64,000 bases of DNA, taken from assembly GCF_037392515.1 (NCBI RefSeq), contig NC_090285.1:3599501-3663500 (forward strand). The letters are read 5' to 3'. Below the pieces are notes generated by a model, which saw only the letters and a program-made list of their open reading frames with translations, was not told the origin of the DNA and did no database searches. The translations under genes and the position numbers were made by a program. This stretch comes from Haliotis asinina (Eukaryota > Mollusca > Gastropoda > Lepetellida > Haliotidae). This document shows, piece by piece, positions 1,777 through 63,583 of this stretch (positions within the stretch are counted from its first letter, which is position 1; each line of letters starts with the position of its first letter).

Positions 1777-4700
1777 TCAACTGCCAACTTCCTGTTCAGG
1801 CATGCTGGGATTTCCTGTGGGAGTATGTGGCGGGGCATCAAGTCCCGAGTCTGACAGCTGGGAGTCCTGGGTAAGATAGTTGGGTGCAGGTTTGTTGGAT
1901 GTTGTGGCGGAGAAGTTGAAGGCTTCATTGGTGGCAGGCTGTTGTTGCTGGATGTAGCGCTCCACAAACCAACTTGGACTCCGTGACGAAAAGTTGCTGC
2001 TCAGCTCAAACAAATTCACGACAGATAATTTCTGCTGTGCACGTTAAGGAAATGACATTATGTATTACTAGCACACTTGTTCTGACATTATCTGATATTT
2101 TGCCTGAACTGAAAATCAATAGAATAAAACCACTGGAAGACTGCAAACCAGTACATGGCCTCTGAAATATCCAAAATAGATTGCTGAGCTACTATAAGAA
2201 TAATGAGCAAAGTGATCAATACCCTTCATCCTTCATCCTGAATATGTAGAAAAAAAGCAGACTGACCATGTCATAACCTCTAAAAGAAAATCCTTATGGT
2301 TTATCCTATGAAAACATTTGATCTGCATCCTAATAAATAAATTCTGACAAAACATTCAAATGTAGTCCTTGTGAATATTCAGAAGAGAATTACATCGTGG
2401 TGACTTTACTATGATAATACCTACAGGCAAAAACAGCTAGATGCAAGATTAAAGTGGTTTGATTCACACAGGTTGGCTGTAGCTTACAATACGATACCCA
2501 TTCTTCAAACAGTTCTAAATTAACATTGAGGTGTTCAGTAAGATAAATACGTTGTTCACTGGTCCCTAAGAGATGATAAGCTGATCTACTCTTCAGGCTC
2601 AGGGAACATAAACAAACATCGAGGGTACATCAACTGATGCTCCCCTCATGACAAGTGAACAACTTACAACGACTATACCCCATGATTCTCTACGATTTTT
2701 ACTGCTTGCAATAACCTTGTATAGGTGCATTAGTGAGTATTGTTTTAATTATTCCAATGTTACGAATATTTTCAAAATTCTAAACCATAATTCCATTACA
2801 AATGTAAATGAGTGTCTGTCAGTGTTAAAAATATCTCAGTTCCAAAATATCATACTTGTAAATTAACTTAACTAACAAAAATACATATGCGAAACAACAG
2901 CTTTTGGAACTTATTCAAAGTCATTGATTGTGTTTTCTGAAAAATAAAAATCTTTTCCATTTCATTTTGACAAAACACTATCTTGTGTTGCTGGTCTCAT
3001 CTGTAATATTAATAAATAAACTCTGCATCTTGGTACCTTGGAGATTCCAAAAACAAGAGGGAATTAAAGTGTATACATTTTCAACATTCTTTATCCACTA
3101 ACAGCATCAGAGTAGCTGAGGTAATATTACACCTGTATACATGTATACACCTGTATACATGTTGTTGATTACAGTAGCCGTGTGATATGAGCTGCTGCAG
3201 AAGGATACATTGTGTTTGGTGAGGGGTGGGAGCTGGAACATTGACGGTGGTTGAGTCAGACGGAGATCTGTAGAACCTGACAACACGCAATAGATACATA
3301 CAGTCAGGCGGAGATCTGTAGAACCTGACAACATGCAATAGATACATACAGTCAGGCGGAGATCTGCAGAACCTGACAACACACTATAGATACATACAGT
3401 CAGATGGAGATCTGCAGAACTTGACAACACACAATAGATACATACAATCAGGCGGAGATCTGTAGAACCTGACAACACGCAATAGATACATACAGTCAGG
3501 CGGAGATCTGTAGAACCTGACAACACGCAATAGATACATACAGTCAGACGGAGATCTGCAGAACCTGACAACACACTATAGATACATACAGTCAGGCGGA
3601 GATCTGTAGAACCTGACAACACACTATAGATACATACAGTCAGGCGGAGATCTGCAGAACCTGACAACACGCAATAGATACATACAGTCACAAAGAGATC
3701 TGTAGAACCTGACAACACGCAATAGATACATTCAGTCAGACAGAGATCTGTAGAACCTTTATTGATAAAAGCAGAATGACCTCACTGATGCATAATCTAG
3801 CTCACCTGTAGGGTGAAAGTATTGATGAGCTCGAGGGTTGAACACTGTCCCACTCCGGAATGGCATGAACAATGCAGGCAGGCTGACATCTACAACAGGA
3901 AGTGTCCAATCAGATATCACACCTTACTGAAACGTCCCCTGGTACCTCTCTCTAACACCAAATCCCAACTCTCTCACTAAATCTCCAAGTCACCAACTCA
4001 CTCACTCACTTACCCACTCACTCACTCACTCACACACACACTCAACAAACAAAACACACATAAAAAAACATATCCACTAACCGCTCTCTCTCACACTGAA
4101 ACGGGATAAATAATGACAGCCATACCTTTCAGAGCATCATACATGGCTTCCTCTCGTTTGCTCAGTCGATGCTGACCAGCCAACTTCTTCTCCAAGTTAT
4201 CCCGAATTTCTCGGAGTGTTCGCTCATTCAGCTCGGCCATGTGCTGTTTACTCTCCTCTTCATACAACCGTAGTCGCTCAAAGAACTGGAATGATATGAA
4301 TGGCATGACATCACTGATATCAAACATCAAACTGCATTAAAAGATGTGAAAATGAACTATCACTGAAATTTACTTCGTGATTAAAAGTAGATTCATTCTT
4401 ACCAAAACCCACTAAACTCACATCTTGTGGCAATGCCTCTCCCCACTTCGGCAAAGGTTTCCCTACACGGAAGTTCTTCCTTGTCTTCTGGGTGGCAGGA
4501 GGCACTGGTCTGCAAGGGAAACAACTCTGTTACTCATGTTCTTAACTGAAGACAGCGGATTCTTACAGCTTTGAAGAAAAAACACTATAAGTTGTTCACT
4601 AGTCACGAGGGGGGCCAAGGATTGATGTATCCTCAATGTATATTATGGTCCCTGAGCCTGAAGGGTACCTTGACCCATGGGCCAGATGGACCAGAGAACC

Positions 4701-63400: not shown

Positions 63401-63583
63401 GTGCACAGCTGTATAAAGCTCACCTGTATGTGGTGCACAGCTGTATAAAGCTAACCTGTATTTGGTGCACAGCTGTATATAGCTCACCTGAATGAGAGAT
63501 GCTGCAGTGGGAATCTGTCTGTTAAAATGTTTCTGCCTTTGCTTCTGCTGAACCTTCAAGGCAAACCCCGATCCTAAGATACC
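57443..63583 (-). CDS. KCNQ1: KCNQ1-type voltage-gated K+ channel, C-terminal exons (partial)
   Basis: Seven coding exons: 63488-63583, 61458-61716, 60816-60912, 59564-59639, 59065-59159, 58226-58325 and 57443-57544 (TAG). They encode the last 274 residues; the six-transmembrane part lies beyond the window. The first exon, '[17 protein letters not shown]' then KHFNRQIP and AASLIQ, is KCNQ1-like rather than KCNQ2-5-like ('VQEQHRQKHFEKRR'). It opens helix A, whose IQ motif spans the splice to 'CLWRCHAAE'. Helix B follows ('[15 protein letters not shown]', '[16 protein letters not shown]'); A and B together bind calmodulin. Helix C is '[14 protein letters not shown]', and helix D '[20 protein letters not shown]' is the tetramerisation coiled coil. 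The A-B linker (~110 residues) is basic and Ser-rich. The tail after helix D is only ~20 residues, much shorter than in mammals. All junctions are GT-AG with matching phases. The intron after the first exon begins with a donor-bearing minisatellite. Confidence 0.95.
61885..62087 (+). repeat. Dispersed ~220 bp repeat, copy 3 of 3, with 51 bp hairpin
   Basis: Shares 'GCTTCAAACAGTT', 'GGTGTTCAGTATGATAAATA' and 'CGTTGTTCACTGGTCCCT' with 2455-2672. Its right part is a strong hairpin: 61951-~62001 is the near-perfect complement of ~62035-62085 ('CATGGGCTCATGT' against 'ACATGAGCCCATG'). It lies in the KCNQ1 intron. Confidence 0.78.
62095..63487 (-). repeat. Minisatellite, ~33 bp unit, ~31 copies, each carrying a 5' splice site-like motif
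   Basis: On the minus strand units read 'ATACAG|GTGAGCTATATACA' plus GCTGTGCACCAC. The KCNQ1 exon ending at 63488 reads 'CATTCAG|GTGAGCTATATAC', so the real donor is the terminal member of the array. About 12 copies lie at 63095-63487 and 19 at 62095-62704, split by a SINE pair. Most copies keep a perfect GTGAGCT donor; a minority have GTAAGC, GTTAGC, GTGTGC, GTCAGC or AGTGAT-like changes. Confidence 0.94.
62693..63100. mobile_element. Head-to-head inverted pair of tRNA-like SINEs with 12 bp target duplication
   Basis: Arms 62740-62904 and 62926-63090 are perfect 165 bp reverse complements around a 21 bp centre. Each arm is a SINE whose tRNA-like head (right arm, from ~62929) has box A 'TGGCTGAGCGGGCTAGG', a long variable arm of leucine/serine type and box B 'GGGTTCGAATCCC' (~63000), followed by a ~70 bp body ending 'CCCAAATATGACATATG'. 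TGTACTTAGCTC flanks the whole insert at 62693-62704 and 63089-63100. About 35 bp of other sequence (62705-62739) precedes the left arm inside the duplication. A 5'-truncated relative sits at 36692-36805. Confidence 0.9.

Follow-up and report, generated by a model that had tools for sequence, protein, structure and literature searches.

Minisatellite arrays at the exon edges of three unrelated genes, probably of the 'mirage' kind described in amphioxus

In the window, by which we mean the whole 64-kb stretch of DNA that was analysed, three minisatellite arrays with units of 48, 58 and 32 bp lie in three unrelated genes, each with one end at the edge of an exon. We consider it probable that they are boundary-spanning minisatellites of the 'mirage' kind, which would have grown from a duplication crossing the boundary and persisted where splicing tolerates them; if the gene models hold, they would be new examples of a known phenomenon. 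The position of the arrays relative to the exons, the repetition of splice motifs along them and the effects of the resulting decoy sites on the reading frame can be seen directly. An earlier note on this DNA had described the common layout, and it is borne out by TRF together with homology at BDH2 and KCNQ and, for the third array, by a modelled acceptor. Its further statement that each unit repeats the junction stands in part, as splice motifs do recur in all three arrays, while copying of exon sequence is clear in the 48-bp array and is seen in the 58- and 32-bp arrays by register alone. Where the note took the class to be nameless it was wrong, since boundary repeats are already called 'mirages' in the available parts of two amphioxus papers (PMC3087553, PMC3902484).

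The window carries intron-rich animal genes at a G+C content of about 40%, and the host genes of the arrays are BDH2 (plus strand), a KCNQ1-like gene (minus strand) and a coiled-coil gene without an assigned family (minus strand). BDH2 (DHRS6) has nine coding exons at 33780-48385, identified by homology to a human query; the top PDB match of the gene is human DHRS6 (2ag5). The KCNQ1-like gene matches Pfam KCNQ_channel with an E value of 8.5e-11 and KCNQ1 in the PDB with an E value of 8.8e-12. The third gene, running from about 14.2 to 3.1 kb, was modelled by eye and is coiled-coil in appearance; a PDB search returned no homologues for it, and two Pfam matches, Sec3_CC (E 0.00023) and LCD1 (E 0.19), fall below the cut-off. 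The Pfam scan covered all three minus-strand frames in 1-14400 and in 54000-64000, all three plus-strand frames in 38501-48500 and a few ORFs, and Rfam gave no match at its gathering threshold. Altogether 51 junctions were modelled, compared with about 38 in the earlier note, most of their edges being set by eye or by the ends of tblastn matches and possibly some bases off. Elsewhere in the window, two opposite-strand ORFs (14386-14643 and 14987-15364) have similar translations (...HRDGCFFQRRH...) and would therefore be inverted copies of one repeat. The coordinates of the arrays and of their flanking exons are given in the table.

Features at and around the three boundary arrays (positions within the window; a slash, here and in the text, marks the exon-intron boundary)
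Feature	Position	Strand	Details
48-bp array, coiled-coil gene	3254..3758	-	10.5 copies (TRF)
Last exon of coiled-coil gene, modelled	3107..3276	-	starts STDLRLTQPPSMFQLPPL; frame continues from exon 3889-3806
BDH2 penultimate coding exon	46660..46752	+	homology; ends ...LYLASDE/
58-bp array, BDH2	46744..47567	+	14.2 copies (TRF); starts 9 bases within the exon
Degenerate ~33-bp array, BDH2	47820..48329	+	extends into the pyrimidine-rich stretch, to 2 bp from the BDH2 acceptor
BDH2 last exon	48332..48385	+	homology; 17 residues
KCNQ1-like 96-nt exon	63488..63583	-	homology; 32 residues, GILGSG...AASLIQ/
32-bp array, proximal half	63095..63494	-	12.5 copies (TRF); CATACAG/GTGAGC
32-bp array, distal half	62100..62704	-	19.2 copies (TRF)
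Palindromic tRNA-like insertion, ~390 bp	62705..63094	.	splits the 32-bp array; edges with 12-bp direct repeat TGTACTTAGCTC

Given its gene model, the 48-bp array is the only one of the three in which exon sequence is clearly copied. Its units, read on the minus strand, repeat the acceptor GTGTTGTCAG/GTTCTACAGATCTCCG.CTGACT together with about 23 bases of the exon start, and on the exon side 24 of 26 bases are reproduced, a score that none of 500 shuffles equalled. The array ends at the modelled acceptor 3277/3276, which was placed by frame and splice consensus only. Upstream lie ten further copies of the acceptor site, nine with AG and one with AA, each of which would add a multiple of 48 nt to the exon and leave the frame open, at 16 residues per unit. 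Because this acceptor has no homology support and the array is in frame, the array could be partly coding, and, as far as the sequence suggests, the gene could make isoforms through the upstream copies. Were the first acceptor-like AG before the array used, the intron (3757-3805) would have a length of 49 nt, with translation running through the entire array in a single open frame. In the same gene, a CACT microsatellite (6369-6417) stands immediately upstream of the modelled acceptor of another exon.

The BDH2 donor at 46752/46753 lies between exons that are both backed by homology. In the 14 printed units of the 58-bp array, GAG/GTACGT is found in 11, two have GC in place of GT and one reads GTACAT; besides the exon's own site this leaves 13 decoy donors, 11 with GT and two with GC. 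The exon is copied at 8 of 9 bases in register, and 211 of 500 shuffles do equally well when the comparison is unanchored. This one intron carries arrays at both ends, the 58-bp array at the donor and a second, degenerate array on the acceptor side. Exon copying by the acceptor-side array was also considered and was rejected, as 253 of 500 shuffles were equally good. Retroelement-like ORFs occupy 40678-44761 within a BDH2 intron, where a reverse transcriptase match falls below the Pfam cut-off (E 0.0011); the ORFs at 42862-43869 and 43955-44758 had no Pfam match at E 0.01.

The donor of the KCNQ1-like gene lies at 63488/63487, and the next homologous exon begins from 61716. Over its roughly 31 units the 32-bp array has 27 AGGTR sites and, both halves counted, 21 exact copies of CAGGTGAGC; 6 of 7 exon bases are copied in register, and 350 of 500 shuffles are equally good unanchored. 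Between the halves, ARAGORN reports two divergent tRNA-Thr-like genes in the palindromic insertion. Since the insertion splits the array and has a direct repeat at its edges, the array probably predates it, short of certainty because the direct repeat resembles the array units themselves. Both this array and that of BDH2 start at exon ends fixed by homology, and their register matches are partly the splice consensus. With exon copies this short, and not significant when unanchored, both may merely abut the donor; it is because boundary spanning is weak in these two arrays that we hold the mirage reading as probable and no more firmly.

The consequences of using a decoy differ among the genes. 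With any of the 13 BDH2 decoys, translation would meet a stop codon 12 nt beyond the exon, so BDH2 needs its exon-proximal donor. Only nine of the 27 KCNQ decoys are in frame, two of them open; the other 25 give a stop or a frameshift, which makes the exon-proximal donor necessary in that gene for nearly all decoys. These outcomes count against a reading in which the repeats have been taken up for alternative splicing and diversify the protein isoforms, on the pattern of human IFI6, a reading that draws support from the ten in-frame, open extensions of the 48-bp array and from the IFI6 case itself, where, in the available part of the report, two downstream repeat units are employed as donors (PMC4526556). 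Also against recruitment, the 48-bp units carry no sign of coding constraint when the differences among the ten units (9 synonymous and 15 non-synonymous) are compared with those possible (39:102), and we judge it improbable overall. Nor are the decoy motifs clearly better conserved than the remainder of the units, with 3/122 against 11/643 differences in BDH2 (P 0.48), 1/84 against 23/374 in the 48-bp array (P 0.099) and 13/275 against 87/692 in KCNQ (Fisher P 0.00016). Selection on the KCNQ decoy donors was considered and rejected, as 8 of the 32 nine-base windows in that unit, the motif's own among them, score as well.

To place these arrays among the others, we took the 46 rows that TRF returned for the window, merged overlaps and treated the two 32-bp halves as one array, which gave 13 minisatellite arrays; those with fewer than about three copies (3128, 11434, 13967, 28825 and 48886) were left out, as were microsatellites, among them 3956-4046, 6369 and 48601. 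Nine of the 13 are inside gene models and four outside, where an unseen junction is possible, and minisatellite arrays make up 7.1 kb of the 64 kb and 15% of gene spans. Outside the gene models there is, for instance, a 39-bp array (484-1012) that is open on both strands and has AAGGTATGG in its consensus unit. A modelled junction is crossed by three arrays, that is 3/13 in the whole window and 3/9 inside gene models, against 0.40 and 0.59 expected under a founder-segment null (P(≥3) 0.0060 for the window and 0.0146 for gene spans with nine arrays). With junctions inside or within 10 bp the counts rise to 4/13 and 4/9, against 0.34 expected in the window (at least four in 0 of 5000 placements) and 0.63 in gene spans (P 0.0030) under a full-array null. 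Enrichment of arrays at junctions is in this sense nominally supported, by P values that are post hoc, come from one window with approximate junctions and include two arrays of the four in a single intron. Counted by junction there is no excess, 3 of 51 (6%) lying inside arrays against the 15% coverage of gene spans. The claim that the placement is far above random agrees with the nominal excess under both nulls, but is weakened by its post hoc character and by the junction-wise count.

These figures bear on the reading that arrays are simply so abundant that some touch exon edges by chance, with units that often hold a donor-like motif. Such motifs are indeed present in arrays away from modelled junctions, namely CAGGTGACA (7/9) in a 30-bp array and AAGGTATGG (7/9) in the 39-bp array, and a donor-like motif in the unit was for this reason rejected as evidence on its own. 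Chance is further favoured by a junction-wise count lower than the array coverage, by unanchored exon copying that is significant in one of the three arrays and by the post hoc placement statistics; the two nulls themselves (P 0.006-0.015 for three crossing arrays, at most 0.003 for four within 10 bp) speak against it, and we regard it as possible but unlikely. The nominal enrichment and the presence of an array at either end of a BDH2 intron would also fit junction-linked initiation, in which R-loops or stalled spliceosomes make boundaries hot spots for tandem duplication. This we find quite improbable, as layout and enrichment do not distinguish it from tolerance and the units of the 48-, 58- and 32-bp arrays have no more sequence in common than shuffled units do (scores as high came from 119, 202 and 179 of 300 shuffles). 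We likewise give little credence to the wider proposition that in this genome junctions, donors and acceptors alike, are preferred birthplaces of minisatellites, in a phenomenon reaching beyond amphioxus.

The mirage reading, which we prefer, would begin with a local tandem duplication of a segment that straddles the edge of an exon. Further copies would come to lie on the intron side and multiply by slippage or unequal exchange, and the spliceosome would go on choosing the copy adjoining the exon, leaving the others as tolerated decoys. We infer that the recurrence of the layout reflects such tolerance and not preferred initiation. The introns could alternatively be recent gains that arose through tandem duplication, as in the Rogers model, a known route, with a potato RdRp duplication that crosses an intron-exon boundary as precedent (PMC4974935, available part). 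The arrays fall short of spanning the full KCNQ and BDH2 introns, which argues against intron gain. Moreover, the KCNQ exon measures exactly 96 nt, as does human KCNQ1 exon 8, and the KCNQ intron would on that basis be ancient; intron gain is accordingly highly improbable to us. If boundary arrays prove to be common, they would provide a test of how the spliceosome chooses among at least 12 near-identical neighbouring sites, as well as a source from which new exons and introns could form. Counting them across a whole genome could tell targeted initiation apart from tolerance; in its available parts, the literature covers single genes or gene sets, and a search made mostly of titles and listings found no study that tests on a genomic scale how arrays lie relative to exon edges.

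Mirages were reportedly first described by Canestro in 2002. In the available parts of the papers, they are minisatellite-like tandem copies of exon-intron boundaries in unrelated amphioxus genes, splice signals being present in many of the units (PMC3087553, PMC3902484), with units of 10-72 bp in Adh3 and about 150-160 bp in the globins, at 5' and 3' boundaries and with splicing seemingly undisturbed (PMC3087553); the genes concerned are Adh3 and the globins BflGb6 and BflGb9, to which TnC and, with imperfect repeats, PGBD5 were added (PMC3902484). As far as their available text goes, two amphioxus papers mention tandem repeats without boundary arrays (PMC2206037, PMC2632668). Our three arrays are likewise tandem and minisatellite-like and lie at 5' or 3' edges, and many of their units hold the AG or GT signal (BDH2 11/13 GT, 48-bp array 9/10 AG, KCNQ 27 AGGTR in about 31 units). 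That the unit spans the boundary is seen in the 48-bp array (0/500 shuffles) if its gene model holds, whereas the 58-bp (8/9) and 32-bp (6/7) matches are not significant unanchored. In these two arrays no more than 7-9 bp of exon are included, and the likeness to amphioxus is one of layout alone, in the DNA of one haplotype.

Turri is said to have described, in 1995, a human 6-16 minisatellite with multiple splice donors. IFI6 (6-16) resembles our donor arrays in having donor sites within repeat units; two downstream units are used there, whereas use of the decoys here would mostly break the frame. In human segmental duplications, according to the available part of the report, tandem repeats occur at exon-intron boundaries and minisatellite expansion alters gene structure (PMC2812944). 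Expansion at exon edges is common to both cases, but there the genes are recent paralogues for which novel introns were inferred, whereas here at least one intron is probably old. The potato RdRp gene, as far as the available text describes it, shares with our arrays a tandem copy across the boundary; there a single duplication gave rise to a new intron, whereas here the copies form a long array.
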